A stretch of DNA of 64,000 bases from Cephalotus follicularis (taxonomy: Eukaryota; Streptophyta; Magnoliopsida; Oxalidales; Cephalotaceae), in NCBI GenBank assembly GCA_001972305.1, contig BDDD01000903.1, positions 216,501 to 280,500 on the forward strand. The letters run 5' to 3'. The notes beneath the pieces were generated by a model that saw nothing but the letters and a program-made list of their open reading frames with translations, was not told the origin of the DNA and ran no database searches. The position numbers were made by a program, and so were the translations under genes. Below, piece after piece: positions 142 to 63,786 of this stretch; position 1 is the first letter of the stretch, and each line of letters starts with the position of its first letter.

Positions 142-330
142 GTCGGCGTTTATTCCTTAGGCGTCGACGCTTATGTCCCTTAAGCGTCAACGTTCAGTCC
201 CATAGAGTCAGTGCTTTCAGTGTCTGGGCATCGATATCTCCTCCCATAGACATCGACGATTTAATCGCATTCAACATATAAAAAATAGTTCACAGTATTA
301 AGCGTCGAGGCTTACCCAAGGCGTCGACGG
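142..330. repeat. Phased GTCGAC palindrome array in RT-D LTR (1)
   Basis: GTCGAC-like cores start at 142, 163, 186, 230, 252, 304 and 323. Neighbour spacings of 19-23 bp dominate. The consensus is AAGCGTCGACGCTT, with variants such as GTCGGC, GTCAAC and ATCGAC. The bases between copies are not conserved. Confidence 0.75.
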
Positions 331-1113
331 TTTCAAGCAGCTATCGTCTTCTACCTCACGACATGAACAAACAGTGACATTCCCATGATAGTAACATGCA
401 ATCCAAAATGTATAAAGCCTAGAAAACTGGCATGCAATATCACATTATACATCCAATATAACATAGCAACATTTCATTTACAAAAATTAGTCCAACAAGC
501 CATGCAATCTATGCAAAACATTACTGAACAAACATCAATTATTGGAGCCAAAATACAATTATGGCTTCCCCTACCTCTGGCCTCAAGTTAGAAGCCGAAA
601 GTCCACCCCTTGTAGTATCCAATCAGTCACTTTGATTCCCCAGGTACGGCTTGGAGGCTCCCTGGTCTGCTCCACAGTCGTTGTCCAAGCTCCAAGTTTC
701 CCTTGCTCAACAATGGAGTTTAAGCTTTCTCTCTATGAATTCTCACTATGTCCCTCTTTTCTCATTTCCCAGATGTTCAAGCAAGAAGGAGGACAAAGTG
801 GGAGGTGTTTTATGTTGGTAACACACCTCTCACCCTTCTTTGATTCGTTGCATGCACCTCCCAGGCTCCTTTTCCCATCTTCCCCCTTTCCCAGGTTTTG
901 TTCTCTTCTTCTTAACTTTCTTTCATTGCAGGGGGAGTTGACACTAACCATTTGCACGTCAAAGGCTATGGACACGTTTTGGTGCATGCCTGAAGCCTTG
1001 CTGTATGGTTAACACATCTTGAAATACATGTGAGCGCCTAAAGAGTGGCTTGAACATTCCTTCGTGCGCCACGTCTTTCTGCTGTTTATTTTAAGCAGAA
1101 CACGCTATAAAGC

Positions 1114-1208
1114 ATCGATGTTTACATTGAGGCGTCGACGCTTATGTGCTTGAACAAAGCGCACGTTTTGATCACTTAGGCATCGACGCTCCACTGTAGG
1201 CGTCGGCG
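1114..1208. repeat. Phased GTCGAC palindrome array in RT-D LTR (2)
   Basis: Cores start at 1114, 1134, 1182 and 1202, as two pairs each 20 bp apart. They are of the GCGTCGACGC type. This second cluster is about 190-280 bp from the LTR start (1394, minus), close to where the first cluster sits in RT-A and RT-B. Confidence 0.7.
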
Positions 1209-1394
1209 CTTTAGTCTTAAAATTGTGCCGTTTTGATTGAAACTTACACTCTTACCATTTCTTTAGCATTCTTTCTCCAAATCAACATTACTAGAGTTTG
1301 GAAAACATCATCAAAGTCCATCACTTTATTAATCCCACAATAAAGGTACATTTACATTGTGAAATTACAACATCTGAAAATCCTGGGCATTACA

Positions 1395-6266: not shown

Positions 6267-7069
6267 TGTAATAACTGCAATTTCAATTAATGTATATTGC
6301 TCCCAATTTTAAATAAAATATACATTTTAATTGAGATTATTTGTCCACTTATCATAATAATTGTGATTAGTGAATGCTTGGGTTGGATGGAGATACAATT
6401 GGTAAAAACAAACTTAAGGAACCCTAAATTCAGCTCAAACAGCCGACTGTCACAGGGTAACAGTCGACTGTCTGATGCATGGTGTGACAGTTGACTGCCT
6501 GTTAAAGACAGTTGACAGAACAGGTGTCTATGCATGCATGTGAGACAGAACTGTGGCATTGCATGAGGGACAGGTGTTATGCGAGTCTCCAGTTGCCATA
6601 ACATGCAAGAGGAGTGCCTTGCATGTCCTCTATTCCTTCTGCAAGATTTGCAGACCTGCAACCTGTAAAAACAGAAGAGAAAAGAGTGAGGAGAGGTGCA
6701 TGTGATAGAGAAACGGAAAAGAGGGCAGGTTGAATTAATGGGATCCTAACGAATTCTAAGACTCTAAAACCTTTATATCAGTTGTGAAGAGCTGATTTGT
6801 GTGTTAGGAAACATTGAGGAGAAGAAATCAAAGGAAAGATTATCTTGGAGCTTGCATGTAGGAAGTTGGAGTTCAAAGTAGTTTTAAAGCTTGAATCTTC
6901 CTGGTAAGTCACTAATCCGAATTCCTTAATGTTGTTATGGTTAATAGCTAGGAAAATAGACCAGGATTGGATATCCATATCTTCTGTTAACATGATTAAG
7001 ATTAATAATTTCTGGAATTGAGATAGAATGGGTAAATGGTTCAAAGAAGAGTTGAAATTATAAGCCTCT
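6267..7069 (+). repeat. RT-B 5' LTR, first part
   Basis: It starts TGTAATAACTGC at 6267 and aligns with the start of the 3' LTR at 23361. It stops at 7069, where RT-A begins after CCTCT. The uninterrupted sequence is preserved at 24161-24200 in the 3' LTR. Confidence 0.92.
6440..6518. repeat. Phased ACAGTCGACTGT array, RT-B 5' LTR (1)
   Basis: Ten-base motifs CAGTCGACTG or near variants start at 6440, 6461, 6488 and 6509 (spacings 21, 27, 21). Variants include CAGCCGACTG and CAGTTGACTG. The same array recurs at 23534-23612 in the 3' LTR. Confidence 0.85.
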
Positions 7070-7226
7070 TGTAATAACCACAATTTTGATTCATGTATTT
7101 TGTACCCAACGATGAATAAAATACACTTTTTGAGATGCTATGTTGGTTACCTGTTAATAGAATGAAGTTGGAATAAAATTCTTAAATGAAAAAAAAAACT
7201 AAAGAAATAATTTATGGTGCCAAACC

Positions 7227-7390
7227 GTCGACGCTTGACTCCTTACCATCGACGCTTTAAGCCCTGACACGTGCACAGAACGCACAGTTGAAGGCTAAGT
7301 TAAGGCGCCAAACCGTCGACCTTTAAACGCCCAGCATCGACGCTTAGAGGCTTATAAGCGTCGACTCCCACGATAGAACCGGCGATGCTT
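7227..7390. repeat. Phased GCGTCGACGC array, RT-A 5' LTR (1)
   Basis: Cores start at 7227, 7248, 7315, 7336, 7360 and 7381. Spacings are 21, 67, 21, 24 and 21 bp. The motif is of the GTCGACGCTT type, with ATCGAC and GGCGAT variants. The array begins about 160 bp into the LTR, roughly matching the first array of RT-B. Confidence 0.88.
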
Positions 7391-8330
7391 TAGACGTGTT
7401 CTGGCGCAAAGATATGTGTCAGTTGGAATGGAATGGCATAGTTGAAATGATGGTAACATGGGCATGTGTCCATAGACGTGTTGGCCATGCAAAAGAGGCC
7501 TTAGCAGCTGTTGATAGTGCCAGACCAAGGAGTCTTGCATGTCTCTTTTCACCTGTAACCTGCAAGACTTTGGGAAAGAAAGAAAAAGAAAGGGGAAGAG
7601 TGCATGCATGAGGGAGAGAGAAATGTGCATTGAGGGATGGAGAAATCTGGCGAAATGAACGACACACTGTTGACCTTTTTATACCAACTGTGAAGAGCTA
7701 TTTGAGTGTTAGAAAACACTGAGAGAATGAGAGACAACCTGGATAATTGTTGGAAGATTTCTAGAGGTTGAAGGAACTTGAAGTTCAAAGGGGGGAAAAC
7801 TTGGATCACCACCTGGAATTGGTAAGTAATCCAAAATTCCTTGATGCTTGTAAGGTCGTTAGTAGTGTAATACCCTGAAGTTAGCATCACATTGCCACTG
7901 TTAACATGGTTATGAAGGATAAAGCACGGAAGAGAAGATTGAATGTTGTATTAGTTAGGAATTAGAAAGTTGAACTTAGAAGTTAATTATTAAGCTTCTG
8001 ATCCATGATGTTGTCATGGTTAGATAACTAGCTTAACGTACTGGATTCGTATCTAAAACCTGTAAACATGCATTTATGTAGATTGATTATGCAATTTTGG
8101 AAGATAGAAGGAAAGTGAAGAACTTTGGACATAGAGAGAGAAATCAATTTGATTTGACTTCGGGACTGCTTTAAAGGTAGGGGATTTTGACATGTTTTTG
8201 AACATATAACATGTATAATGTGTAGTGATGGTTGAAACTTGATTGTATGTTAATTTGGACTATGATTTAAAGGATTTTATGCATGCTCTGTTTTGATGTT
8301 GCTCCTGGAATTCGAAAAAACGCCAGAAGC

Positions 8331-8467
8331 TCCTACGCTTCATTTCAGACAGTCGACGCTTTGGTGCGAAAATGGCATATTAAAGCTTAGAATGTCGACG
8401 TTTAAGTCGTGTAGTGTCGACACTTAGTCATAAACCGCCGACGCTCACACAGAAACTGTCGACGCTT
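8331..8467. repeat. Phased GCGTCGACGC array, RT-A 5' LTR (2)
   Basis: Cores start at 8331 (decayed), 8352, 8394, 8416, 8437 and 8458. Spacings are 21, 42, 22, 21 and 21 bp. The 3' LTR copy preserves a better first unit (GCGCCGACGCTT at about 15495). Confidence 0.88.
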
Positions 8468-9589
8468 CAGAACAGTAAATGTAGAAATGTGTAAACTAAT
8501 CGATTGAATTGTTTGTGGTTGTAATTATCCTTGATCTGCTATATTGTAAATATCATTACCGTTATTTAATGAAATTTCTACTGTTATGGATACATATTCA
8601 AGGATTTTACCGTCCTAATGTTTTAAGCATAAATAATGATTTTTAACGGTTTTCTTATGTAAAATCTTAATGTCATACAAACTGCTATTTTCCTCTTAAT
8701 AGAGGCATTGTTACTGTTTAGTTCTCACAAGAGAACCACTGATTGAACTGTTATGTTTCCCCAAAATGAAAACTATTATAATATTGCATATTATAGATAT
8801 ATGTAATATTACTAATGAATTGATTGAATTGTTTGTCTATGCTATTGCCGTTAGTCGAGTGATAGGAGGCATCATTGGCTATGGAGGTTGTCCTATGTGC
8901 TAGGAGTTGGCTAGAGTACCCACCCTAACTGTCTGCAATGCAGATCTTGATTGTTAAAATACCCGCTAATGCCGGTAGTAACTGACCTGATCTATCATCT
9001 TCGGAGTGAAGTGTGATATATAGGTGATGCACAGTCGTTGTTAGGAGTTAGCGACATGTGACACCCAAACAACCGTACTGATTGATTGTACCCTTGTGCG
9101 GTATTCTTGCATTGTACTGTCTTTGGCCACTTGGCATGATTGCGTACATATTGGAATAATATACATATATATGTTATTTCATTAAAACTGTCATGCATAT
9201 TTACATTTATAGATTAAATTACATGAGTTATCTTCCTACTTAGCCAAGTGAGGACAACGACTAACCCCCTACAATTTCAGATTAAGTGAAGACATTCGAG
9301 GAGTTGCTGCTATAGCGTGGAGAGTTTTTATCTACTTAAGGTTGTTATTTTTTTTTATGTACTAAATTTGTATTGAACGGTTCACACTCCGTGTTGTTGT
9401 TTTACCTTTCCTTGTGTATAAGGATAATTTTGATGGATTGTATACGCACGTAGTATGGGCTGCGTGCGAATGACTTTGTAATCCAGTTTTAAATGCTTCC
9501 GCTTATTTATGAAATGTTCGATTATTTACTTATTCCAGATATCACCACATATGTTGTCTAATGTAATGGAATAATGGGGTGTGACAGCG

Positions 9590-14229: not shown

Positions 14230-14385
14230 TCTAATAATCGCAATTTCGATTCATGTATTTTGTACCCAACGATGAATAAAATACACTTTTTGAGATGTTA
14301 TGTTGGTTACCTTTTAATAGAATGAAGTTGGAATAAAATTCTTAAATGAAAAAAAAACTAAAGAAATAATTTCTGGTGCCAAACC

Positions 14386-14545
14386 GCCGACGCCTGACTC
14401 CTTACCGTCGATGCTTTAAGCCCTGACACGTGCACAGAACGCACAGTTGAAGGCTAAGTTATGGCGCCAAACCGTCGACCTTTAAACGCCCAGCATCGAC
14501 GCTTAACGACGTATAAGCGTCGACTCCCATGATAGAACCGGCGAT
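14386..14545. repeat. Phased GCGTCGACGC array, RT-A 3' LTR (1)
   Basis: Cores start at 14386, 14407, 14474, 14495, 14519 and 14540 (spacings 21, 67, 21, 24, 21), identical in layout to the 5' LTR copy. Confidence 0.88.
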
Positions 14546-15496
14546 GCTTTAGACGTATTCTGCCGCAAAGATATGTGTCAGTTGGAATGGAATGGCAGAG
14601 TTGAAATGATGGTAACATGGGCATGTGTCGATAGACGTGTTGGCCATGCAAAAGATGCCTTACCAGCTGTTGATAGTGCCAGACCAAGGAGTCTTGCATG
14701 TCTCTTTTCACCTGTAACCTGCAAGACTTTTGGAAAGAGACAAAAAGAAAGGGGAAGAGTGCATGCATGAGGGAGAGAGAAATGTGCAATGAAGGATGGA
14801 GAAATCTGGAGAAATGAAGGACACACTGTTGACCTTTTTATACCAACTATGAAGAGCTATTTGAGTGTTAGAAAACATTGAGAGATTGGGAGATGACCTG
14901 GATAATTGTTGGAAGATTGCTAGAGGTTGAAGGAACTTGAAGTTCAAAGGGGGGAAAACTTGGAGCGCCACCTGGAATTGGTAAGTGATCCGAAATTGCT
15001 TGATGTTGTTAAGGTCGTTAGTAGTGTAATAGCCTGATGTTAGCATCACATTGCCACTGTTAACATGGTTATGAAGGATAAAGCATGGAAGAGAAGATTC
15101 AATGTTGTATTAGTTAGGAATTAGAAAGTTGAACTTAGAAGTTAATTATTAAGCTTCTGATTCAATTCCGTGATGTTGTCATGGTTAGATAACCATCTTA
15201 ACGTCCTTGATTCGTATCTAAAACCTATAGACATGCATTTATGTAGATTAATTCTTCAATTTTGGAAGATAGAAGGAAAGTGAAGAACTTTGGACATAGA
15301 GAGAGAAATCAATTTGATTTGATTTTGGGACTGCTTTAAAGGTAGGGGATTTTGACATGTTTCTGAACTTATAACATGTATAATGTGTAGTGATGGTTGA
15401 AACTCGATTGCATGTTGATTTGGACTGTGATTGAAAGGATTTTATGCATGCTCTGTTTTGATGTTGCTCCTGGAATTCAAAAAAAACGCCAGAAGC

Positions 15497-15633
15497 GCCG
15501 ACGCTTCATTTCAGACAGTTGACGCTTTGGTGCGAAAATGGCATATTAAAGCTTAGAATGTCGACGCTTAAGTCGTGTAGTGTCGACACTTAGTCATAAA
15601 CCGCCTACGCTCACACAGAAACTGTCGACGCTT
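15497..15633. repeat. Phased GCGTCGACGC array, RT-A 3' LTR (2)
   Basis: Cores start at 15497, 15518, 15560, 15582, 15603 and 15624 (spacings 21, 42, 22, 21, 21), matching the 5' LTR. Confidence 0.88.
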
Positions 15634-16751
15634 TAGAACAGTAAATGTAGAAATGTGTAAACTAATCGATTGAATTGTTTGTGGTTGTAATTATCCTTGA
15701 TCTGCTATATTGTAAATATCATTACTGTTATTTAATGAAATTTCTACTGTTATGGATACATATTCAAGGATTTTACCATCCTAATGCTTTAAGCATAAAT
15801 AATGATTTTTGACAGTTTTCTTATGTAAAATCTTAATGTCATACAAACTGCTATTTTCCTCTTAATAGAGACACTGTTGCTGTTTAGTTCTCACAAGAGA
15901 ACCACTGACTGAACTGTTATGTTTCCTCAAAATGAAAACTATTATAATATTGCATATTATAGATATATGTAATATTACTACTGAATTGATTGAATTGTTT
16001 GTCTATGCTATTGCCGTTAGTCGACTGATAGGAGACATCACTGGCTACGGAGGTGGTCCTATGTGCCAGGAGTTGGCTAGAGTACCCACCCAAACTGTCT
16101 GCAATTCAGATCTTGATTGTTAAACTGCCCGCTAATGCTGGTAGTAACTAACCTGATCTATCATCTTCGGAGTGAAGGGTGATAAAAAGGTAGTGCACAG
16201 TCGGTGCTAGGAGTTAGTGACATGTGACACCCAAACCACAGTACTGATTGATTCTACCCTTGTGCGGTATTCTTGCATTGTACTGTCTTTGGCCACTTGG
16301 CATGATTGCGTACATATTGGAATACTATACACATATATGTTATTTCATTAAAACTGTCATGCATATTTACATTTATAGATTCAATTACATGCGTTATCTT
16401 CCTACTTAGCCAAGTGAGGACAACGGCTAACCCCCTACAATTTCAGATTAAGTGAAGACATTTGGGGAGTTGCTGCTAAAGCGTGGAGAGTTTTTATCTA
16501 CTTATGGTCGTTATTTTTTTTATGTACTGAATTTGTATTGAACGGTTCACACTCCGTGTTGTTGTTTTACCTTTCCTTATGTATAAGGATAATTTTGATG
16601 GATTGTATAGGCATGTAGTATGGGCTGCATGCGAATGACTTTGTAATCCAGTTTTAAATGCTTCTGCTTATTTATGAAATGTTAGATTATTTACTTATTC
16701 CTGATATCACCACATATGTTGTCTAATGTTATGGAATAACGGCGTGTGACA

Positions 16752-18654
16752 CCTATAATTCGAATCATGGCTGCTGTTATGGTTGTGAATAGGTATATGT
16801 ATGCTGCTAACCATCTATACATACCTTATGTAACATGCAAACATAGTACTTGCTGATATTGGAGTTGAATAGTGGAGAGATGTTGTTAAATGTAAAAATG
16901 GAGGCTTAATGAACTATTGATGAGCTACTATTGGAGTAGTAATTTGTAACTGGATAATTAGTTAAACTTACTGATTAAATGTCTAAACCTTCGAGCATGC
17001 ATTGTATAGATCAATTCTGCTGAGATTGGAAGGTTAAGTTGGTGAAAGAGCTTTGGACATTAAAGAGAGAAATCAATCCAAATTGATTTCGGGATAGCGT
17101 TTAAGGTAGGGGTAATGACATGTCTTCGAAGATATAATATGCATATCATGTATGGTTAATTTTCTGTTTGATTGCATGTGTTGATTGAGTTAGTATTTGG
17201 AAATTGAATATACATACCCTGCTGCTGCCTGCCAATTTCTGGGCAAAGCAATCGACTGTTCTTCATGGCAGTCGACTACTCAATCGAACCAGTCGACTGT
17301 TAAGATCAAACAGTCGACTACTAAATTAAAACAGCCGACTGTTCTTTGGGACAACCGACTGTCCTGGGATAAATTCTGATATAGGTTCTATTTAGGCCTT
17401 AAATTTAATGTAATTAACCTGGCCTCCATATGGGATGACTGTAACAGTCAATTCTGGCCTTATATAATTATATTCCATAAATTAAACAACGTATGCACAT
17501 CTTGTGGAAGTTGTGCAAGAATGACTATGGTATGCTAATGACTTTATTGAATCCTCGAATTATTATTGTGCCTTATTAATCTGACGTATATGCTACTGTT
17601 ACAAATTGTACATACTAGTTGAGTGTTCATAAACACTATTGTTCCATTACTTTCAAAGGATTGAACCAACTAAGTGCTATATGCACAATTAATGATTTCA
17701 ACTATCATTTTCTAATGAAACCTAATGATTACTGTTTTCCTCCAATGTGAGGTATTGTTACTGTACTGAATATCGTTTTCCTCCTACGAGATGTACGATT
17801 ACTGAACTGTAATTGTTTCAAAGAAAACAACTTATATTGCATACTATTGATATATGTAATATTACTACTGAATTGATTGAATTGATTGTCTATGTTATTG
17901 CCGTTAGTCGAGTGATAGGAGACATCACTGGCTATGGAAGTGGTCCTATGTACCAGGAGTTGGCTAGAGTATCCACCCAAACTGTCTGCAATGCATATCT
18001 TGATTGTTAAACTGCCCGCTAATGCCGGTAGTAACTGACCTGATCTATCATCTTCGGAGTGAAGGGTGATAGATAGGTGGTGCACAGTTGGTGTTAGGAG
18101 TTAGCGACACGTGACACCCAAACCACCGTATTGATTGATTGTACCCTTGTGCGGTATTCTTGCATTGTACTGTCTGTGGCCACTTGGCATGATTGCTTAT
18201 ATATTGGAATATTTAAAAATGCTATTTTATATAAAATGTCATACATGTTGCATCTATGGATTCAATTATCATGCATTATTCCTACTTAGCCAAGTGAGGA
18301 CAACGGCTAACCCCTACAACTTCAGATTAAGCGATGACGCACGAGAGGTGCTGTTGGAGCTTTTGGAGAGTTGCTATTTCTGTTAAGGTTGTTACTCTTA
18401 TGTTGTCTTTTGTTTTGTAATGAACGATTCGCACTCCATTGTTGTTGTTGTACTTTCCTTATGTATAAGGATATTGTTGGATTGTACGAGCACGTAGTAT
18501 GGGCTGCGTGCGGATGACTTTTATTTTATAATCTGGTTTATGGAATGCTTTCGCTTATATATTTGAATTGTTATTTGGAATGCTGCATTATTTTTTACTT
18601 ATTCCTGATAACACCACATATGTTGTCTATGTAATGGAGTAACGGGGTGTGACA
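16752..18654 (+). repeat. RT-B 5' LTR, second part
   Basis: It resumes RT-B LTR sequence after the RT-A duplication (CCTAT 16752-16756). It aligns with 24175-26086 and ends GGGGTGTGACA at 18654. Confidence 0.92.
17249..17361. repeat. Phased ACAGTCGACTGT array, RT-B 5' LTR (2), six units
   Basis: Motifs start at 17249, 17269, 17290, 17311, 17332 and 17352 (spacings 20, 21, 21, 21, 20). Units read CAGTCGACTG or CAGTCGACTA, with CAGCCGACTG and CAACCGACTG variants. The 3' LTR has seven units here. Confidence 0.9.
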
Positions 18655-18657
18655 ACG

Positions 18658-23360: not shown

Positions 23361-23533
23361 TGTAATAACCGCAATTTCAATTACTGTATATTGCTCCAAA
23401 TTTTAAATAAAATATACATTTTAATTGAGATTATTTGTCCAATTATCATAATAATTGTGATTAGTGAATGTTTGGGTTGGATGGAGATACAATTGGTAAA
23501 AACAAACTTAAGGAACCCCGAAATCAGCTCAAA

Positions 23534-23612
23534 CAGCCCACTGTCACAGGGTAACAGTCGACTGTCTGATGGGTGGTGTGACAGTCGACTACCTATTAAA
23601 GACAGTCGACTG
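23534..23612. repeat. Phased ACAGTCGACTGT array, RT-B 3' LTR (1)
   Basis: Motifs start at 23534, 23555, 23582 and 23603 (spacings 21, 27, 21), the same layout as at 6440-6518. Two units here keep CG where the 5' copy has decayed to TG. Confidence 0.87.
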
Positions 23613-24666
23613 GAATGGTACAGAACAGGTGTCTGTGCATGCATGTGAGACAGAACTATGGCATTGCATGAGGGACAAGTGTTATGCGAGTCACCAGTTG
23701 CCATAACATGCAAGAGGAGTGCCTTGGATGTCCTCTATTCCTTCTGCAAGATTTGCAGACCTACAACCTGCAAAAACAGAAGAGAAAAGAGTGAGGAGAG
23801 GTGCATGTGAGAGAGAGAAGGAAAAGAGGGAAGGTTGAATTAATGGGATCCTAATGAATTCTAAGACTCTAAAACCTTTATATCAGCTGTGAAGAGCTGA
23901 TTTGTGTGTTAGGAAACATTGAGGAGAAGAAATCAAAGGAAAGATTATCTTGGAGCTTGCATGTAGGAAGTTGGAGTTCAAAGTAGTTTTAAGGCTTGAA
24001 TCTTCCTGGTAAGTCACTAATCCGAATTCCTTAATGTTGTTATGGTTAATAGCTAGGAAAACAGACTAGGATTAGATATCCATATCTTCTGTTAACATGA
24101 TTAAGATTAATAATTTCTTGAATTGAGATAGAATGGGTAAACGGTTCAAAGAGGAGTTGAAATTATAAGCCTCTAATTTGAATCATGGCTGCTGTTATGG
24201 TTGTCAATAGGTATATGTATGTTGATCACCATCTATACATACCTTCTGTAACGTGAAAACATAGTACTTGTTGATATTGGAGTTGAATAGTGGACAGATG
24301 TTGTGAAATGTAAAAATGGAGGCTTAATGAACTATTGATGAGCTACTATTGGAGTAGTAATTTGTAACTGGATAATTAGTTAAACTTACTGACTAAATGT
24401 CTGAACCTTCGAGCATGCATTGTATAGATAAATTTTGCTGAGATTGGAAGGTTAAGTTGGTGAAAGAGCTTTGGACATTAAAGAGAGAAATCAATCCAAA
24501 TTGATTTCGGGATAGCGTTTAAGGTAGGGGTAATGACATGTCTTTGAAGATATAATATGCATATCATGTTTGGTTAATTTTCTGTTTGATTGCATCTACT
24601 GATTGCTTTAGTATTTGGAAATTGAATATGCAAACCCTGCTGCTGCCTGCCAATTCCTGGGCAAAG

Positions 24667-39517: not shown

Positions 39518-39553
39518 GTCGACGTCTTCTACAAAGACGTCGATGTCTTCGAC
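39518..39553. repeat. Paired AAGACGTCGACGTCTT motif, LTR E2 (left)
   Basis: Cores at 39518 and 39539, 21 bp apart, are the counterpart of 34634-34669. Confidence 0.85.
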
Positions 39554-39973
39554 AGTACAGAACGGGGTTTTCACGGTTCCCACATACCAAGCCATTTCTA
39601 AATCAATCCTTTACACAACAGAATCACATATTAATGTAATCATACATGCAGGCTTAACTCAGTGTACCACAGTAACATTTCAACGAGTACAGAATCTCAG
39701 TCCATTCAACAACATGCAATTCACATGCTATACATTAACTTAGAACTTAAAAAGCACATATGAATCCATCACTTTCCCCTACCTTTGATTTCAAGTTAGA
39801 AATCGAAAGTCCACCTCTTTTAGTACTCCAACAGGTCACTTGAGTCCACAGGTACGCTTGGCAACTACCTGATTCGTCCTAGCAGTAGGTGTGCAAGCTC
39901 CAAGCTCCAACAATGGCACACACACACACTTTTTCTCTTTCTCTCTTCTCTCTTTCCTTCTGGTGTTATAAAA

Positions 39974-40545
39974 CGAGAGAGATATGTGGGGAGGAATATC
40001 CTTAAGCAGATAGCTTCCTCCTTCCCTTTTCCTTTTGTCAATACACAGACCAACCCGAGATCTCTCCAACTTTCTCTCTTTCTGCCTATTCTTTTGCATA
40101 TACAAATCTTCCTTTGCAGGTGGCATATGGCAGGTGAGGATTCCTCTGCATGTTCCATGTGAGGACATGTTCTGGGCATTCCTGGCAACACACAGGCACG
40201 GTTAACACGTCGAATCGCACTCGAAAAGGCGGTAGGTAAGGCCCTTAAATAATCCCCCTCGAGAGAGATATGTGGGGAGGAATATCCTTAAGCAGATAGC
40301 TTCCTCCTACCCTTTTCCTTTTGTCAATACACAGACCAACCCGAGATCTCTCCCACTTTCTCTCTTTCTGCCTATTCTTTTGCATATACAAATCTTCCTT
40401 TGCAGGTGGCATATGGCAGGTGAGGATTCCTCTGCATGTTCCATGTGAGGACATGTTCTGGGCATTCCTGGCAACACACAGGCACGGTTAACACGTCGAA
40501 TCGCACTCGAAAAGGCGGTAGGTAAGGCCCTTAAATAATCCCCCT
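39974..40545. repeat. 286-bp tandem duplication in LTR E2
   Basis: 39974-40259 is repeated at 40260-40545 with few differences. Both copies begin CGAGAGAGATATG and end in the AATCCCCCT tract. E1 has one copy (from about 35088). No other sequence lies between the two copies. Confidence 0.9.
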
Positions 40546-40595
40546 TGCATGTTATTTCTGCCGACGAAGAACGTGCTGGCCATTCTTACAAAGGC

Positions 40596-40746
40596 GTCGA
40601 CGTCTTCCATTAGACGTCGATGTCTTTTCCAGTTTGTAAGAAGGTATCGATGCTTTCTCCCAGGGTCGACGTGCATGCCCATGCATTCACGTGAGCCTAA
40701 GCTTAAAAAGGAGTCGACATCTTTTCCAAAGACGTCGATGTCTTTT
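40596..40746. repeat. Phased AAGACGTCGACGTCTT array, LTR E2 (right)
   Basis: Cores start at 40596, 40616, 40646, 40665, 40713 and 40734, the same layout as 35426-35576 in E1. Confidence 0.85.
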
Positions 40747-40914
40747 CCCCAGAACGCTGCCGTTCAAGCTTTAACATACACATTCCAATTCTATGACCAT
40801 AAATAGGGTTTTAAGCATACTTTTGAGTCCAAAACTCAACATTCTCATTATTCCAATTTAAGAATTACATCATAAATCAAAACATTACATTCAAGAAAAT
40901 ACCGGGCTTTACAC

Positions 40915-43607: not shown

Positions 43608-44839
43608 TGTCACACCCCGTTTCACAAACAACATAAAAGTGGTGGCAATCAACATATAAATCCGGCTTATGCAATTTACCATAAATTTAAAACTTTCCAA
43701 TGCCATAAACAACTTGCGGAAGCATTTAAATATAAGCTGAATTAAAACGTAACATGCATCCCATACTACATGCTACAACAATAAATATCATCAAAGTTAA
43801 CTGCCCTCAAACGGAGCGTGAACAATATTCATCATTACATCGATTCATTTATTACAAAGATCCATTAACGTTTCTCAAAAGTAGAAACAACCTAAACTCC
43901 ACTTGCTCCACGGAACTCAACGGTAGCAATCCGCTGCATCAACCTGAAAACAATATAAAACTGTAGGGGGGTTAGCCTTTGTCCTCACTCGGCTAAGTTA
44001 TAAACATGATTCGGGGTCAACGATAAAAAATGCTATGTGATGAATGCAACATGATGCAATACATACTATATCCCGATGCATATATATACGTATATATATA
44101 CCCAACCACGATGTCACAGTTCACGATGTCACAATAATCACGGTATCACAATGTCATAATTCACGGTCTCAAACAAGTCCAAAGGACTACACATTACTCA
44201 GTTCACGGTTCACGGTACACGGTGGGTACGAAGAGCGTCGCCAACTCCTGGCCCCGACGTCGTACATCCCGACATCGGCCCCGTCTCCGGACGGCACGAA
44301 GCAGGTCACAATACAGTAAGTCACCCAGCCAACTCCTAGCCCCTGAGTCGACCAGACCACTAGTCATCGCTGGCATCTCCGCCACGCAACTAGTACGACC
44401 ACAATCACAATCACAATCAACAATCACAGTCAACTCAATCACAATCACAATCATCTCGATGCTCAAAACAATTTTCCAAGTAAATTTATAAAACAAAGAT
44501 AATTGAAAACAAACTCATTTTCACGATGTCACGGTTCTCGATTCAAGATGTTACAAAACTCAGTTCACAATGTTTACAAAACTCATTTCACGATGTTTGG
44601 AAGCCATTTTCACAGCCCTTCGAAAATATATATTTGCTTGAACAAACATTTTCGTGTAAAATAATGATTTATAATGATCATGAATGCACTTCCAAAAGAA
44701 TGATACAACAGTTCACAATCAGTTATCACGATGCATAATCAGTTCACCACAGTTCACAATCAACAATACTCAGTCACAAATCACAGTTCATCACAGTACA
44801 AGATGCATAGACATGCCCACAATGCAAGACAGACACAAA

Positions 44840-45148
44840 CAAACGGTTGTCCCTCACTAACAGTCGGTTGTTTTCCTTCAATAGTCGGTTGTCCTAAACT
44901 GGCAGTCGGCTGCCCACACTCGACAGTCGGCTGTCATCCTTGACAGTCGGCTGTTTATACCTAACAGTCGGCCGCTGGCCTACAACAGTCGGCTACTCAA
45001 GCCTCTGCAGGCATTTCTTAGTAACACACATTGAAAGTCGACTGGCTCCCAAGCACAATCGGCTGGATCCATTGAGTAGTCGGCTGCTCGTACCGAACAG
45101 TCGTCTGGCGCACTCGAGCAGTCGGTTGTCCTCTTGGACAGTCGGCTG
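44840..45148. repeat. 14-unit array of CAGTCGGCTG phased at 21 bp
   Basis: Motifs start at 44840, 44861, 44882, 44903, 44924, 44944, 44965, 44986, 45035, 45056, 45077, 45098, 45119 and 45139. Twelve of thirteen steps are 20 or 21 bp. Ten bases are conserved and the eleven between are not. One unit (45035) keeps the full GTCGACTG. Confidence 0.92.
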
Positions 45149-45232
45149 GATTCTGCAGAGAGTGCAGAAAAACAGCAGCAAAATAAAGCCATAACTCACA
45201 ACGATCCATTCTAACACACAACGAATCATAGC

Positions 45233-45333
45233 ATCGACGTTATCTCTAAGCGTCGACGTTTATCGCGAAGCAGGACTCATTGTCCGTATAACAATCTATA
45301 GCGTCGACGCTTCTTTCCTAAGCGTTGACGGTT
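45233..45333. repeat. GCGTCGACGC array in LTR H
   Basis: Cores at 45233, 45252, 45303 and 45324 (pairs 19 and 21 bp apart) have GCGTCGACG(C/T)T flanks, unlike the CAGTCGGCTG array only 90 bp away. Confidence 0.8.
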
Positions 45334-46610
45334 AAGCGAACCAAAACATGGTTCCTTCAACACGTCTCAAAACCGATCGAGTTCAAGGCATGCAACACTT
45401 GCGATCCGATCTACAATCATCGTAAAACACGATATGCATAGCGGGTAAACTATTCATAGCAACCCTAACACAGTCACACAATTCACAATTCATAATCCAC
45501 AACCCACAATCATTCAAAGACACGATATGCACCCATTTCATCAAGGAAAATTTATTATAATTGAACTCAAACCACATTTATAAAGTCCCCTACCTGCTAC
45601 AGCAGTAACAACCATACAGTCGAGCTGCACGTTCAATTGCCGAATCTTTTCGATGACCGTTGAACCGAAGCTGGTTCTCGCCAATCGATCAAGTCCTCAC
45701 TGCCAAATCCAATTGTCACTCGCACACTGCACATACAACACATTTCCGTTACGATCAACACACAAAACATTTCCATCGCCGAAACGCCGACCGGATTCCG
45801 ACCGACACAACCAGGCGACGAAACACCCATCAACGGGTTCCACATTGAACGGTCTACTCAAAACCGGTCAAGACTTGCCGGGAATCGGCGCCGAACACCG
45901 CGCCACGGCCGGCAGTGAGTCGTGACTCACTGAGTCAACTCGCCGGACCTCCACAGGTCCGATCACCACCCAAAAATGCCACACATTCACCAGTTATACA
46001 CACCCATGCCTGTGACTCGCCAAGACTCGGCGCCAAACGCCGTGTCTCAGGCGGCCGTGAGTCGACTCGCTGAGTCGACTCGGTCCACTGATTCCGGCCG
46101 ATTCCGGCTGAATCACGCCTCACCGGTGTTGGAAATGGGTAGAGCGGACCTTCTACACCAAAACCCACCCCACCCGTGACGCCAACGGCGCCGGGAAACG
46201 CCGGGAGGAGGCGCGACACAGTGGCGGGGAGAAGAAGAAAAATGAAGAAAAAGAGAAGAAGGGGGAGGAGGTTACCGTCAGTTCGAGGCCCTGGGTTGAC
46301 TGGCGTGCTCTCCCGGCCCGGTAGCTGCCTCCGGCGTCCTCTCCCGTTCTCCCTGCCGATCTCTCTCCCACACTCTCTCGCCATCTCTCCCTGCAGGCGC
46401 ACATAGCGCCTGCGTTCTTTTCTTGCACGGGAGCGTGATGCGCCCGTGTGTGGTCTTTCTCTCCCTTTATTCATTTGTTATTTTGCTTTCTCTTTAGTAT
46501 TTTCTGGTAAAATACTAAGGTACGGGTCCCGATTTTTCCGTAAATCGTGACATAAATTTTCCAAACAACCACCAAAATAATCGCAATAATATTGCGAGCA
46601 TTCGGGCTTT

Positions 46611-48591: not shown

Positions 48592-50744
48592 TGTAACACC
48601 CCGCGCCCGCAGGGCGGACACGTGGTATTACTCTCAATCCAATACACAATACAATGGTTGGGACTAGCAATATAAAAATGTGAAAAAACTTAAAACTTTG
48701 CAATACTTATCATATGCAGAAGCTACAATACAATAAACCATCCATACAAGTACAAATCCTTTACAATACCACTCTTTTTCAATACAATACAGTTCAATCT
48801 TTCACTACAATATCTCACAACCAGCTCCATGATACCCAAGCAGTCGTGCGATAAAAAATAGTCTTCAGTCCTTCTGTCCGCTGCTACCTGCTGCCCTACC
48901 TATGCCGCACACAAAAGTACAACACAGCCCACCCCGAAGGATGGGGTTAGCCACACTTGCTAAGCAGGAACCTCATGCAGCATGTATGCATGTACAATGT
49001 GCGATATCTGTGACAATCTATGCAATATCAATGTGCGGTGTACAATATCAATGCATGACATGGCAAATGCATATGTACAGTTGGCGATCAGACTACCTGT
49101 ATGACAATGGCCCATAACAGAGCATACGGATAGGATCTATAACAATCAATCAATGGCAGACACTCAATGGTGGTGTATAAAACACCCAACCAATCAATCA
49201 ATATCCTATAGAGCATACGACCTCGGGTCAATACAATGTTAATCAGTTAGCAGTGATCAATCCCACAGAAGGTAGTCCTTCAAAAAAGGTGGGAGATCTA
49301 TCTAAGGTCCTCAGATTGATCAGGTCTGGGACTCATAGATCTTCCAGCCTATGGTTGGGTCATTACAATCTCGATGAGCTACAACCGATGGAGCTACTGA
49401 TACCATTAGGGAGCTAGGGCCTCAAGGGAGCATCAATCGATAATCAATTGGTACCGCTCGTCAGCGGGTCAATACAATACAGTGAATGAAACGATCGACG
49501 AAATAGGTGGATAGCGTGAACAACCTTACATGCTAACACATATCATAAGGTCACTCTATAGGATCCATACAATACAATTAATCATGTCAGTACAATATCA
49601 TTACAATGTCAATAGGCAAAGTCAATGAGTGACGGTATCTAATGGAGGGTCGGGAATGTGTGTCCAACTTACCGACTTAGACTCACATCACTCATGACAC
49701 AAGTAATCAATCGCTTAGTACAATCATTAAAACCGTTTTCAAACACTTGAACACCTCAAGTTAGGCTCCAGTCAAGTGGCAATGTGAAAAGAAGTTGAAA
49801 ACCAGCTTTAAAGTAGTTAAAAACTCCTTTCAGTCCATTCGGCGTCGATGTCCTTGGTGAAAGACGTCGTCGCATTTGTAAAATGGTGGAAAGACATCGA
49901 TGTCTTTCTCTATTTGTGTAGAGATCTGGCCGAAAGAAGTCGATGTCCTTGGAGAAAGACGTCGACGCGTTTCAATAAAAATAGCCTGGGAATGTGCATC
50001 GATGTCTTTTCTGGGGAAAGACATCTCGAGGCAAAGACGTCGGTGTCTTTGCTGCGGAATCATAGATACAACACTCTGAAGCGAAAGACATCGACGCCCA
50101 CGGGCTAGGGGTCGATGTCTTTGCTGGACAGGGTCAAGTTTTGCGTAGAAAACGCTGCCTATCTTATACCAAAATACAATTTAAAGCCATTCTTTGAAAA
50201 CCAAGGTTTAAAACCAATCATTTGAGGTTAGTAAAACTTGTTACAACCTTCAAAATTCAGTTTCAATCCCCCTAGATCAGTTAGATCAAGGAAATCAATA
50301 AAACCCTTGTTTTTCAATTCAATGCAATACAATTACTCAATTCAATCAACATTCAATCAACTATGCAATTAAGCAATAGGCAATCAAGTAGGGATGTCCT
50401 ACCTTTAATGAAGCTTCAATAGTGGAGCTAACGATCGATCAAGGCTAGAAACACTCAAGAAGTGGCTGCTATGTCACTCAATCGGCAACCCACACTTGCA
50501 ATCGGTATCCTTGTTGAAAGATATGCAATCCGGCTGCTATAGAGATGGAGGGAGGCTGCCAGCAAGAGAGTGAGAGGGAGAAGAATGAAAGAATGAGAGT
50601 GAGAAACTGAATTATATAGTCAATTCGACCAACTCTTCGAAACTCAACCCAAAATCCTGACTGTACATGCATATACACATAAATACGGTCTAATACGGTA
50701 CAATGTATTCATGAACAGTACAAAAGGGAATTCGTGTCATCACA
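48592..50744 (-). repeat. RT-K 3' LTR
   Basis: It is 2153 bp. On the minus strand it starts TGTGATGACACG at 50744 and ends GCGGGGTGTTACA at 48592. A polypurine tract lies directly upstream in element orientation (50745-50760). It carries a GTCGAC array of the AAAGACGTCGATGTCTTT type. Confidence 0.88.
49844..50130. repeat. AAGACGTCGACGTCTT array in RT-K LTR
   Basis: Cores start at 49844, 49866, 49896, 49938, 49960 and 49998, followed by about four more to 50125. Steps of 22, 30, 42, 22 and 38 make this array less regular than others. Palindromic copies such as AAAGACATCGATGTCTTT are present. Confidence 0.8.
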
Positions 50745-58767: not shown

Positions 58768-59513
58768 TGACGAAATCGGATATACCGAGTCCAGTGCCAA
58801 AATGGACTTAAGTGTTAAGGGTGTAGAATAAAACTTTAAACATACAATCATACAGCGGAAGAACACCCAATAAAACATAAACAAGTCCGTAATGGCACGT
58901 CCACAGACCACATGGATCACCACAACATCTACTAAATTGAATTGGTATCACCATTGCATCCAATGGTGACACACAAACATGGTATAAGGAAGAAGGAACA
59001 AGAGTTTATACCAGCGGGTGTTGGCTCCTTCGTTCTTTGCCGCTACAAGCTTGAAGCAGATTCCCTTTGATCTCCTCCAAGTCTCAGGAACAGCAAGTAA
59101 TTCAACCAACAAGATCAAAGTGCTTGAACTCACTCTCTCTCTCACTTAGCTTAGAAAAGGACCATTGATTATGACCAATGAAGTCAATAATCAATCCACC
59201 CTAGATAAGCCTTGCTTAGTGTATATCAAATGAAGGAACACTCGCTTGCAGAGAAGAATTCGAGGTTAATTGCCCAGCAAAAATTGTCTCTCATTTTAAT
59301 TTTCATTTTCTACAGAAATACTTATAACCAGCCTTCAATTCTCTCTCCCAATCTCCCATTAATTCAGGATCATGGCCTTCACTCCTTGGGAGTCTGATGC
59401 CATAATTCCACGTTTCTCGAACGTGTAGAATCGAGAGAAACCGGCTAAGGATGTGAGAGGAGTAGTGCCCACGATTTGCGGTTGTGCATAGGTTGCACGT
59501 TCTGCTCAAAGAT

Positions 59514-59640
59514 GTCGACGTCTTCCGAAAGACGTCGACTCCTATGCAACGTGGCACTAAAGCACATCGATGATTTCTAAAAGACATCGACGTCTTTATC
59601 AGGGAAACGCATCGATGCCTTTCTAAAAGACGTCGACGCC
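59514..59640. repeat. AAGACGTCGACGTCTT array, RT-M left LTR
   Basis: Cores start at 59514, 59534, 59566, 59586, 59611 and 59632 (spacings 20, 32, 20, 25, 21). Confidence 0.87.
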
Positions 59641-60037
59641 TTCTGGCTAGTAAAACATAAAAAGTCTAACTCCTTTAGTGTTTTCATGTCCCTTCGAATA
59701 TTGGTTAAGTAAGATCAAACATAAGTGTTTCCACAAAATGTAAGATCCACATAACCGATATTTGACAGCAAGACTTAATATGTCCAACATATTAAAGACC
59801 TAGTCATTATAAGGCAGGGACCCTTTAAAATATTGGTTATCAGAGAGGTGTTCATAAATTACCGAAATACCCCTCGGGTCCGGTTTAGCCATTCTAAAAG
59901 GTCCTCGACCAATTTAAATGCTGTTGGAATAATATCCAATATTATCCATATGGAAAAATCAATCTAATTAATTTTCCCAACACCTCAATAACCACAGATT
60001 TTCTAAGTTGTCGGTTCGCGTGCACTATAATCCCTTG

Positions 60038-61626
60038 TCATAAATGGGTAGGCTTTCTTGCCAATTTGTATCCAATACAAGATCCAATCATAGTATTTGG
60101 CCTTAGATTCAATATGGCCTCAGCTAGGGCATGACAAACCATCAGAATCTTGATAAGTCCAGTACCCACAATTTTCATTGGAATGCACTAGTTTTAACAC
60201 CCGCACGTAGGTGTGCCCAAGTGCTAAAACATAGCCACCCTTTGCGGTGCCCAACACCGACGTTGACATAATATCCCCAAGTCATCAGCCTCAGCTAGGG
60301 CATGACAAACCAATAACCCAGGAACACTACTCAACGAAAATTGTGGAAGGCCATGGGGATCCACTCCATGGGTTCCTACGTTACGACTTATTATTGTATT
60401 GAGGGAATTTGCGGTCTCAAGTTTTAATTACCAAACCATTAATTAATTCAATGGTTATATTAGCCAATTTCAATTAATTACGGCTCATCATGCAAGACGT
60501 GTATCTTATGCACCTTGGACATATTTCTAAAATATGTCAATGGATCTTGGCCAGGACATTATTAGTAGTGACTTGAGCCCAAAGTTATTACAAGGTCTTC
60601 CTAGGTGTAAGGATATAAATCTATTTATTACAACATTAACCATCCATACATGGCCTTCAAAAGTCTTGTACTTCATATCTCCTTGACTCCATCTCTCCTT
60701 GCATAGTCTTCTTTTACAAAAGGAACAGTACATTTTTGAAAAGAAATTTTACATTTAAAACAAGGAGAAATTAAAAAGGTAAGGAAAATAAATGGTGCAC
60801 GCAGGCACCTTATTACAGACCTTTAAAGATAATAAATAAATTAAAATCCATCCACACTTAGAAAACAATAAACTAGGTCAAAGTCCTTTTCGGGCCATCC
60901 ATTGTGCATAAGATCTACATTATATCCAATATAATGAAACCACAAGATAAAACAAATGCCATAAATGATAACCAATTACACAATTTAATTCAATGATTGT
61001 TAATTGATCAAACTCCCACTAAATCAAGCAATGATTTTAATCTTCCAGGTGCCAAAATGTATAAAATCCAATTTTATACAAAAACAGTTTTTTTTATTTA
61101 TAAAAGACGTCGACGCCTTACCAAAAGCATCGACGTGTTTTCTGGAAAAACAAGGCGTCGATGCCAAAAACAGAGCATCAACGCATTTGACAAGAACATT
61201 TAAAAAAAGGCGTCGACGTCCAAAAATAACATCGACGCGTTTCACAAAGTATGATCCAGACATCGATGTCTATGATGAACGTCGACGTCTTTACTGGGAA
61301 TTTGACATAACATCGACGTCTTACCAAAGTCGTTGACGTCTTTAGCCCCCTGGGCATTTTATGCATTTCAAAAATGCTGAATTCAATGGTTTAGACTATG
61401 GTATACCATTCTGGTATTCCAAAATGCACTATGTATGTTCCAAACTTAATTCTAAACACATTTAAACAACATTCCCAGCATTAAAACACAATGAAATCCA
61501 ATTTCATGCAATTTTCATTAAGGCACTTAGAAAATTTAGTTTGATCACAAAAACACATCCAATGATTAAACTATTAATCATTACATCATCCAAGGCATAC
61601 ATATTCAATTAAGGATGATGTGGGAC
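60038..61626 (-). other. RT-M interior, non-coding
   Basis: About 1.6 kb with no recognisable gene. The words CCTCAGCTAGGGCATGACAA appear twice (about 60118 and 60291). The right end holds a palindrome array (61109-61340) before an AT-rich stretch and the PBS. Confidence 0.7.
61109..61340. repeat. AAGACGTCGACGTCTT array in RT-M interior
   Basis: About eleven copies of GTCGAC, ATCGAC, GTCGAT or GTTGAC. The first are at 61109 and 61129, 20 bp apart. This is the only array here outside an LTR, in the leader just downstream of the PBS in element orientation. Confidence 0.83.
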
Positions 61627-61638
61627 GCTCTGATACCA
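61627..61638 (-). other. RT-M primer-binding site (initiator Met-tRNA)
   Basis: On the minus strand this is TGGTATCAGAGC, a perfect initiator-Met tRNA complement, four bases from the LTR end at 61643. It fixes the element's orientation. Confidence 0.92.
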
Positions 61639-61642
61639 CTTA

Positions 61643-63786
61643 TGAAATCGGATATACCGAGTCCGGTGCCAAAATGGACTTAAGTGTTAAGGGTGTAGAA
61701 TAAAACTTTAAACATACAATCATGCAACGGAAGAACACCCAATAAAACATAAACAAGTCCGTAATGGCACGTCCACAGACCACATGGATCACCACAACAT
61801 CTACTAAATTGAATTGGTATCACCATTGCATCCAATGGTGACACACAAACATGGTATAAGGAAGAAGGACCAAGAGTTTATACCAGCGGGTGTTGGCTCC
61901 TTTGTTCTTTGCCGCTACAAGCTTGAAGCAGATTCCCTTTGATCTCCTCCAAGCCTCAGGAACAGCAAGTAATCCAACCAACAAGATCAAAGTGCTTGAA
62001 CTCACTCTCTCTCTCTCACTTAGCTTAGAAAAAGGAGTATTGATTATGACCAATGAAGTCAATAATCAATCCACCCTAGATAAGCCTTTCTTGGTGTATA
62101 TCAAATGAGGAAACACTCACTTGCAAAGAAGAATTCGAGGTTAATTGCCCAGCAAAAATTGTCTCTTATTTTAATTTTCATTTTCTGCAGAAATACTTAT
62201 AACCAGCCTTCAATTCTCTCTCCCAATCTCCCATTCATTCAGGATCATGGCCTTCACTCCCTGCGAGTCTAATGCCATGATTCCACGTTTCTCAAATGTG
62301 TAGAATCGAGAGAAACCGGCTAAGGTTGTGAGAGGAGTAGTGCCCATGATTTGCGGTTATGCATAGGTTACACGTTCTGCTGAAAGACGTCGACGTCTTC
62401 CGAAAGACGTCGACGCCTATGCAACGTGGCACTAAAGCACATCGATGCTTTCTAAAAGGCATAGATGTCTTTATCAGGGATACGCATCGATGTCTTTCTA
62501 AAAGACGTCGATGCCTTCTGGCTAGTAAAGCATAAAAAGTCTAACTCCTTTAGTGTTTTCATGTCCCTTCGAATATTGGTTAAGTAAGATCAAACATAAG
62601 TGTTTCCATAAAATGTAAGATCCACATAACCGATATTTGACACCAAGACTTAATATGTCCAACATATTAAAGACCTAGTCATTATAAGGCAGGGACCCTT
62701 TAAAATCTTGGTTATCAGAGAGGTGTTCATAAATTACCGAAATACCCCTCGGGTCCGGTTTAGCCATTCTAAATGGTCCTCGACCAATTTAAATGCTATT
62801 GGAATAATATCCAATATTATCCAGATGGAAAAATCAATCTAATTAATTTTCCCAACACCTCAATAACCACAGATTTTCTAAGTTGTTGGTTCGCGTGCAC
62901 TATAATCCCTTGTCATACTTGGCCCCGATTGAGGTCTAGGGTAAGGATATGTGTCAACCCTAGATAGTACCTCAATGGCTAAATTATCTGATCATTACGA
63001 GGACCTTTGATAAACTCTCCAGAAATCTAATTTCCAGTCTACCTCAACCTTGGCCAAGGATTTCATAAGTCCAAAGTATAATCAGACAATAATAGGACCG
63101 ATCACCTTTGCTCAGCTGTGACAATCCCTTATTGCGCACTCACTTATATTTGTATAGATTCGATCATACCCAAAGACCACCCGATTGCCAGTCCTGCGCA
63201 AGGACTGGGTAAGGTGGAGATCAAAGCATCACCGTCTCCATACAATATAGAGTGGTCGCTCAGGTCTAAGGATCAGACGAGTTTAAGAACTCGCTAAGTG
63301 ATCATTACTTATACACAACCGCAACAAGTAGGAGTCACTACTGACACGAGAATAGCGACTATCCAAACAGTGTCTCTTACGCGGGTCCTGTTCAGTGTAC
63401 ACGCTCCCAGCGCATTGCCCTAGTGTCCAACACAGATGGTAGTGAGAGAATCCATCCCCCGATTCCATGAGCAGGCAACATACACGCAAGTCTATCCGGT
63501 TCACTAATGCCCAAAAAGTGAACCTATGACTTGTAACAAGTTTGACATAAGGAGTAAGGTAACCAGTCTCACAGCCTCCATGCCAGGCATCCAACCTTAT
63601 GTCGGGGCATCACTAGTATAAGTAGGTAATTAAATAAACTACTTCAATTATGTGATAAAATACAAGTGATATAGCCATAACAAATTTAGCACGCATCATA
63701 TATATAAAAGAATAAGATTGTTCCATACATGGTAAGATATAATATGACAACCCATATAATGGCTTGTCGGGTCACTATATCTAACA
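61643..63786 (-). repeat. RT-M 5' LTR (right copy, full length)
   Basis: It is 2144 bp. Positions 61643-62917 match the left LTR closely. Positions 62918-63786 have no counterpart on the left. Confidence 0.87.
62389..62520. repeat. AAGACGTCGACGTCTT array, RT-M right LTR
   Basis: Cores start at 62389, 62409, 62441, 62461, 62486 and 62507, the same layout as in the left LTR. One unit here has further decayed to ATAGAT. Confidence 0.87.

Follow-up and report, generated by a model that had tools for sequence, protein, structure and literature searches.

The nearest described counterparts of the sequences reported here are the RM boxes of Sireviruses, a high-copy, dyad-symmetric and CpG-rich motif, conserved in the core and variable in the arms, which is clustered from 200-400 bp after the start of the long terminal repeat (LTR), forms CpG islands there and contains stress-factor sites according to PLACE (Bousios et al., 2010, PMC2829016). 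RM boxes belong to Ty1/copia elements, have a CGG-CCG core with one exception and are absent from the classic copia elements examined (PMC2829016). Tnt1 box I and the copia leader activator are further cases in which symmetric activator sites are repeated within an LTR or leader (PMC2829016; generally PMC10760457). PLACE lists GTCGAC, RYCGAC and RCCGAC as the entries CRTDREHVCBF2, CBFHV and DRECRTCOREAT, respectively (PMC9138379), and CBF/DREB sites are enriched in stress-linked maize transposable elements (TEs) (PMC4287451). Here, we describe a 64,000-bp stretch of the Cephalotus follicularis genome (contig BDDD01000903.1, C903:216501-280500, from an assembly of 1.577 Gb in 9,746 contigs; hereafter the window), in which LTR retrotransposons and single LTRs, termed A, B, D, E1, F, K, L and M (Table 1), carry arrays of a GTCGAC core spaced by 21 bp. 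No description of such GTCGAC arrays was found in titles and abstract beginnings of the open-access literature, subscription papers lying outside the search. We propose that the arrays are probably cis-regulatory.

An earlier note on this DNA had claimed that the arrays share a GTCGAC core phased at about 21 bp and that they sit in LTRs, and both claims hold. For the counts, the window was compared with 200 dinucleotide shuffles made in 500-bp blocks. Exact GTCGAC occurs 55 times, versus 6.2 ± 2.5 times in the shuffles (maximum 15), and the core with at most one mismatch 232 times versus 162 ± 13. The latter sites form 50 pairs at 20-22 bp, where 1.4 ± 1.2 were expected and no shuffle gave more than 5. 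When hexamers are ranked by the density of their 20-22 bp pairs in the window, GTCGAC comes first among the 64 palindromic and fifth among all 4,096 hexamers; those above it are GCGTCG, CCGTCG, CGGCGG and CGTCGA, and all but CGGCGG overlap the core and an arm. LTR-type stretches, which as delimited amount to 26,168 bp, with element M included entirely and the ends of F and L drawn generously, contain 151 of the 232 sites, 54 of the 55 exact cores and 49 of the 50 phased pairs; a single exact core (22847) and a single pair (32053/32073) fall outside them. After deduplication, 73 of 85 units have a neighbour at 19-23 bp, compared with 17.8 ± 5.0 upon random placement (maximum 35 in 2,000 trials). 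The units form 21, 2, 3, 1 and 1 runs of two, three, four, six and seven, respectively, plus 12 single units. Doublets, which make up 21 of the 28 runs of at least two, are thus the commonest arrangement, and this is also the case in the genome sample described below. The earlier note had named about 42 bp as the alternative spacing, which was borne out in part: 20 pairs are 41-43 bp apart (1.5 expected), but among nearest neighbours the next spacing after 21 bp is 48-52 bp in 8 cases and 42 bp in only 2.

The same pattern is found across the genome. Exact GTCGAC triplets at 20-22 bp occur 41,157 times in the 1.577-Gb genome, versus 152 matches for the letter-reversed control. A genome sample was taken from contigs chosen for their top reverse transcriptase (RT) matches, at random positions; it comprises 20 of 80 drawn 10-kb stretches (L127-L146; 200 kb with 1,164 bases N), and three more stretches were added later. 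The 20 stretches contain 662 cores with at most one mismatch and 110 pairs at 20-22 bp, compared with 3.6 ± 1.9 in 40 shuffles (maximum 8). By spacing, 75 pairs are at 21, 24 at 20 and 11 at 22 bp, whereas 7, 10 and 17 pairs fall at 15-17, 25-27 and 31-33 bp, respectively. GTCGAC is again the first of the 64 palindromic hexamers, with a ratio to neighbouring spacings of 15.7 (next hexamer, 5.1). Phased pairs are present in 13 of the 20 stretches, one of which (L133) has a single pair, and in two of the three further stretches; runs of two, three, four, six, seven, eight and nine units number 55, 5, 10, 2, 1, 1 and 1, respectively. Scaled up, 110 pairs per 200 kb correspond to some 10^5-10^6 pairs in the genome, an estimate that may be too high because the contigs were chosen by RT matches. 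The excess over shuffled sequence on which the earlier note had staked its claim of phasing is therefore present in the window as well as in the genome sample. In both, the spacing has a sharp mode at 21 bp. Since 10-11 bp is without a peak (0 and 2 pairs) and the sample has none at 31-33 bp that compares with that at 20-22 bp, phasing by single helical turns can be rejected and the units are phased by two turns. The 21-bp mode fits the further idea of the earlier note, that copies two turns apart present one face of the DNA to cooperatively binding proteins; the open arrays that it envisaged fit less well, since doublets are the commonest form. Beside the 21-bp series, the sample contains a further family of spacings, near 28, 49 and 70 bp (21n + 7), for which we offer no explanation. 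In viral contigs, the triplet pattern matched 118 stretches with a median GC content of 0.68, the 14 with the lowest GC content being other repeats or coding-like sequence, and the doublet pattern with AAGC arms had no match.

Within the LTRs, the arrays are arranged in two blocks. In A, B, D, E1 and K, the two blocks are separated by a conserved word, AGGTAGGGGA (at most one mismatch), which resembles a splice donor and may act as one; in F, the word precedes the arrays. Three further occurrences, at 5485, 22754 and 48901, lie outside those LTRs. Block 1 was sought 100-450 bp from the LTR start and block 2 60-800 bp after AGGTAGGGGA. Among the 12 LTRs of window and sample in which both the start and the word were found, 11 have block 1, which lies 151-316 bp into the LTR, and all 12 have block 2, whose first phased unit lies 144-359 bp after the word. 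Four further LTRs without a found start were admitted because block 2 is present, giving 16 anchored LTRs. A and B keep both blocks at matching places, although the fronts of their LTRs are only 38-69% alike. Element L departs from this layout with a single array, and M has an LTR array and a second one past the primer site. TATA-like boxes are clearly placed between the blocks in A and E only; in L, one precedes the single array, and none was found after block 1 in B or D.

The anchored LTRs also give the core a direction. On the sense strand, 142 of their 157 units read RYCGAC (69 GTCGAC, 46 GCCGAC, 19 ATCGAC and 8 ACCGAC), a tally that is partly due to construction, as units were picked by similarity to GTCGAC or by RYCGAC on either strand and GTCGAC reads both ways. 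RCCGAC is found 54 times in the sense and once in the antisense direction in these 16 LTRs, which are not independent, since some belong to one element or are near copies; ATCGAC outnumbers GTCGAT by 19 to 3. Similarly, asymmetric units within the clusters of the genome sample agree in direction in 151 cases and disagree in 4, with 18 of 20 clusters of at least two units being unanimous (6.6 expected). Where two different variants are paired, they agree in 31 cases and disagree in 3. Together with the genome-wide counts given below, our reading is that the second core position is directional, with T or C on the sense strand, and that the first and last positions decay symmetrically.

A comparison of units with one another sets the core apart from its surroundings. 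Core identity is 0.86 between adjacent units and 0.82 between units of different elements, whereas the outer or spacer positions have identities of 0.303 (adjacent), 0.337 (non-adjacent) and 0.27 (different elements), close to the 0.254 expected by chance. The earlier note was thus right that core and spacing are conserved while the spacers are not, and spacers as conserved as cores, the finding that it regarded as decisive against it, were not seen. A 21-bp minisatellite conserved over its whole unit can therefore be rejected. The arms are intermediate, with identities of 0.595 between adjacent units, 0.546 between non-adjacent units and 0.40 between elements. Three arm types were distinguished: AAAGAC-GTCTTT in E/K, M and in part L; AGC-GCY in A, D, part of F and the insertion in K; and ACA-TGT in B and part of F. 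By the rule set in this analysis, 30 of the 85 window units match none of them. In the genome sample, ACA-TGT is the commonest type, with CA|TG in 83 of 201 units. The arm type seems to be independent of LTR relationship, as the sisters A and B differ, two types occur together in F, and a single one is common to E, L and M. One might still argue that slippage produced 21-bp minisatellites in ancestral LTRs, which were then copied by retrotransposition, and that core and spacing are without function. Tandem Repeats Finder indeed calls some arrays, for example 39256-39296 at 100%, and arm likeness is higher among the units of one array than across elements, and slightly higher again between neighbours. 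However, spacers of adjacent units are no more alike than those of non-adjacent units, doublets outnumber triplets and quadruplets, and LTR fronts with poor or no alignment to one another still have this core, its phase and the placement in two blocks in common. We therefore regard plain tandem duplication as an improbable explanation, albeit the best placed of the alternatives.

The arrays are CpG-rich, with an observed/expected ratio of 1.55 compared with 0.67 in the rest of the LTRs and 0.60 elsewhere. Thirteen of 15 arrays have a ratio above 1, judged by this ratio and without an island program, the exceptions being F_b1 (0.82) and B_b1 (0.34). In the LTR copies that were compared, CpGs changed at 61 of 318 sites and non-CpG positions at 237 of 6,702; within the core, 14 of 101 CpGs and 2 of 119 other sites changed. 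The E comparison in this set is E1 versus the LTR of K, that is, two elements and not one pair. Core CpGs thus change similarly to all CpGs, and there is no sign of selection after insertion. As inserted copies lose their cores, the conservation between families would have to come from active copies. The CpG richness of the arrays, their presence in many families and the decay of the CpGs of the host elements, which is about five times faster than that of other sites, could also mean that the arrays are recognised not by an activator but by a silencing factor of the host, which would recruit DNA methylation or heterochromatin to specific sequences. The present evidence does not tell activation from repression, but successful elements should lose the targets of such a factor, yet arrays are present in all 12 anchored LTRs with a found start. 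A silencing role is accordingly unlikely in our view, at a level just below that of tandem duplication.

Less likely again is a function at the RNA level, with hairpins of the array transcripts serving as a source of 21-nt small RNAs or assisting in packaging or splicing. The directionality of the second position follows the sense strand, 21 is a small-RNA length, and 14 array stretches folded as RNA had z-scores of -1.3 to -6.8, as tandem dyads must. In Sireviruses, palindrome clusters are reported to attract small RNAs (PMC10760457). The kinds of core variant speak against such a function: on the sense strand of the 16 LTRs, 69 variants break RNA self-pairing (46 GCCGAC, 19 ATCGAC and 4 GTCAAC) versus 7 that leave a G-U pair (1 GTCGGC, 3 GTCGAT and 3 GTTGAC). 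Pairing of the arms is also not clearly kept per unit. The inner arms are complementary at the consensus level, and re-pairing left and right arms randomly within an array gives nearly equal complementarity (for example 60 vs 58.6 and 39 vs 40.0, of 80), with the third (51 vs 45.8 ± 2.0) and eighth (20 vs 14.2 ± 2.8) positions somewhat above it. In the genome sample, the observed complementarity is higher than that after global re-pairing at the first four arm positions (observed/re-paired 166/103, 108/80, 87/67 and 100/72, of 201 units). Arm complementarity is therefore mainly a property of the array consensus and not of the individual unit, and per-unit selection for hairpins, as judged by within-array re-pairing and by the core variants, is unsupported. 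Block 1, which is near the LTR start, is moreover probably upstream of transcription. The small-RNA alternative raised in the earlier note gains no support, and its palindrome stands for the inner arms in consensus but not for the core, which is asymmetric with its second-position C in one direction. An element-encoded binder would be the least probable of all, for although such proteins, like VANC of VANDAL21 or TNPA of CACTA elements, target directional short motifs repeated in the non-coding ends of transposons, the domains in the five scanned open reading frames (ORFs) of A and B (at least 150 aa) are limited to those of protease, RT, RNase H and integrase type, and arrays are also found in M, with 1.6 kb between its LTRs, and in a solo LTR.

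We favour the explanation, which we consider rather probable, that these are cis-regulatory LTR arrays, to which a DNA-binding protein of the host would bind in pairs separated by two helical turns. The site is a roughly 18-bp, CpG-rich and dyad-like sequence with the core G-Y-C-G-A-C along the sense strand of the element. Most sites lie in runs, commonly doublets, 21 bp apart, which would place two protein complexes on one face of the DNA, and each LTR keeps two blocks, about 150-320 bp from its start and beginning about 140-360 bp after AGGTAGGGGA. A host sequence-specific protein, or a small family whose members differ in arm preference, would be the most likely binder and could drive or boost LTR transcription. 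Active lineages would retain core, spacing and direction while the remaining LTR front turns over, and dead copies would drift.

Several observations weigh against this cis-regulatory explanation. Which block precedes the transcription start is uncertain, because TATA-like boxes are clear only in A and E. Adjacent units have slightly more similar arms than non-adjacent ones, and local duplication contributes to some arrays, such as 39256-39296. The directional bias is not uniform either, as the insertion at 38.0-38.3 kb and M lack a sense bias and D is neutral, and an element-level sign test in the window alone gives p = 0.03. Genome-wide, concordant GCCGAC..ACCGAC was found 6,898 times and opposed GCCGAC..GTCGGT 270 times, but the letter-reversed control of the concordant search is itself high (6,155), and the comparison was therefore made with the opposed count (control 109). 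GCCGAC..ATCGAC and GCCGAC..GTCGAT, on the other hand, are nearly equal in number (3,993 vs 3,808; letter-reversed controls 464 and 1,030), so that a general R-Y direction is rejected for the first core position and kept for the second. As for the identity of the binder, CBF/DREB-type AP2 proteins are a lead, since GTCGAC, RYCGAC and RCCGAC are catalogued as C-repeat/dehydration-responsive element (CRT/DRE)-type sites; we hold this assignment to be unlikely, though worth following. CBF/DREB proteins are not known to need dyad arms or a 21-bp phase, which also counts against our proposal in this form.

We further speculate, and tentatively so, as we rather doubt than expect it, that one host protein or a small set of paralogs could be the shared transcriptional gateway of several Ty3/gypsy families, with doublets kept or captured at fixed LTR positions and the 10^5-10^6 directional, phased sites forming a TE-borne regulatory network or a protein sink. 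If the arrays are bound, much of the retrotransposon load in a plant genome of 1.6 Gb may be under the control of a single host factor, different LTR families having come to use one site at one spacing and in one position. The capture of host regulation by retrotransposons could then be put to the test, as could the question of why the grammar of the sites persists while the LTR fronts around it are replaced. The phased doublets across the genome would, in addition, offer a strong test, set up by nature, of the role of helical phasing when proteins bind DNA cooperatively.

The elements and LTRs that carry the arrays are listed in Table 1. Element A (7070-16751, plus strand) interrupts the 5' LTR of element B (6267-26086, plus strand), a nesting that is supported by the target duplications, the LTR edges TGTAATAAC...GTGTGACA and the Met-type primer site TGGTATCAGAGC, which has one mismatch in B. 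The ORF of B encodes RVP_2, RVT_1, RT_RNaseH and Integrase_H2C2 domains in Ty3/gypsy order, and A has RVP_2, RVT_1, RT_RNaseH and SH3_Tf2-1 domains. Two homologs of the B pol among the 120 matches listed (8,000 scored) are named Ty3-type. The Ty3/gypsy assignment rests on the pol of A and B, as D, E1, F, M and most sample LTRs come without a coding region. From their LTR edges and domains, A and B may be Tekay-like. Comparing their 5' LTRs in 100-bp windows, the divergent front gives way to 73-94% likeness in the last nine windows, and this sharp break suggests an exchange of modules. The L pol (54.0-51.3 kb) is 42-65% alike to that of B in five pieces at the protein level, and the only array of L is located in its 3' LTR. 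Element K is on the minus strand with a primer site at 37386, and the front of its 5' LTR is about 97% like E1; it also contains a 286-bp direct duplication (39974-40545, 99% identical), which is single-copy in E1. For the presumed insertion in the LTR of K, the end opposite to the edge at 37800 was not found, nor was the start of LTR F, in which arrays of the ACA-GCCGAC-TGT and AAGC-GTCGAC-GCTT types adjoin. Element M, on the minus strand, has 1.3-kb LTRs with merely 1.6 kb between them.

Table 1. LTRs, elements and GTCGAC arrays of the window (positions in bp of the window)
Feature	Position	Strand	Arrays	Remarks
LTR D	1..1394	-	block 1 1134-1207; block 2 142-328	starts at 1394 with TGTAATGCCC; runs off the window
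Element B 5' LTR, first part	6267..7069	+	block 1 6442-6516	interrupted by element A
Element A 5' LTR	7070..9586	+	block 1 7227-7365; block 2 8352-8463	nested in B; target duplication CCTCT/CCTAT
Element A 3' LTR	14230..16751	+	block 1 14386-14524; block 2 15497-15629	
Element B 5' LTR, remainder	16752..18654	+	block 2 17251-17339	
Element B 3' LTR	23361..26086	+	block 1 23557-23610; block 2 24669-24797	target duplication ACAAT
Solo LTR E1 inside element K	34246..35743	-	block 1 35426-35569; block 2 34634-34660	target duplication ACCCG
Element K 5' LTR	37391..40913	-	block 1 40596-40739; block 2 39518-39544 plus 39173-39289	
Array in presumed separate insertion within the LTR of K	38043..38297	+		edge at 37800 begins like the LTR of L, TGTGATGACCCGAATT
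LTR F, 3' portion	43608..45600	-	44863-45329	GTAGGGG at 45594
Array in element L 3' LTR	49844..50116	-	three doublets	LTR starts at 50744, after polypurine tract and pol
Element M 3' LTR	58772..60042	-	units 59514-59539 and 59586-59637	
Element M internal array	61109..61337	-		just inside the element, downstream of tRNA-primer site at 61638
Element M 5' LTR	61644..62917	-	units 62389-62414, decayed ones to 62512	

Three other features of the window were noted. Adjoining LTR D, the stretch 1956-5410 contains remains of a CACTA-type transposase (Transposase_21, Transpos_assoc, DUF4218 and DUF4216). A tandem array with an 85-bp period at 31799-32286 is built on a different palindrome, CCGACCGC-tata-GCGGTCGG, and words similar to it are among the genome matches of the search for opposed variants (GCCGAC..GTCGGT); it presumably represents a DNA-transposon end and is not part of the GTCGAC finding. 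Lastly, 57507-57608 on the minus strand matches the plant C/D snoRNA R71 with 47.5 bits (gathering threshold 40), in a stretch that also has a retrotransposon gag match (57040-57510).

How, then, do the arrays relate to described systems? The core and its tolerated variants, G/A-T/C-CGAC, match CRT/DRE sites (with the RYCGAC tally partly due to construction, as stated above). Unlike in these sites, the R at the first position has no direction genome-wide, and the dyad arms and the 21-bp phase are not explained by the CBF/DREB family; DRE sites are not known to have dyad arms or a fixed 21-bp pairing. Tnt1 box I and the copia leader are cited as single-family cases, and the accessible parts of the sources mention no core common to several families throughout a genome. 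The likeness is greatest to the Sirevirus RM boxes, which are also dyad-like, CpG-rich and clustered in LTR fronts, and the Vitis RM CGGTCGACCG itself contains GTCGAC (PMC2829016). The arrays described here likewise have dyad arms above global re-pairing, a high copy number, divergent spacers and a CpG content well above that of the remaining LTR. In contrast to the RM boxes, their host elements are Ty3/gypsy, as judged by the pol of A and B, and not Ty1/copia, the core is GYCGAC, and CGG-N0-9-CCG occurs only twice in the 15 arrays, versus 52 times in the whole window. RM clusters shortly precede a conserved TATA box; here, a TATA-like box follows block 1 in A and E, and none was found there in B or D. 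A 21-bp phase is not mentioned for RM boxes in the accessible part of PMC2829016. What distinguishes the present arrays is a core shared by several families of one genome, the 21-bp phase, the frequent doublets, the two LTR blocks and one directional position. They are best read as putatively cis-regulatory boxes analogous to the palindromic ones of Sireviruses, here in Ty3/gypsy elements.

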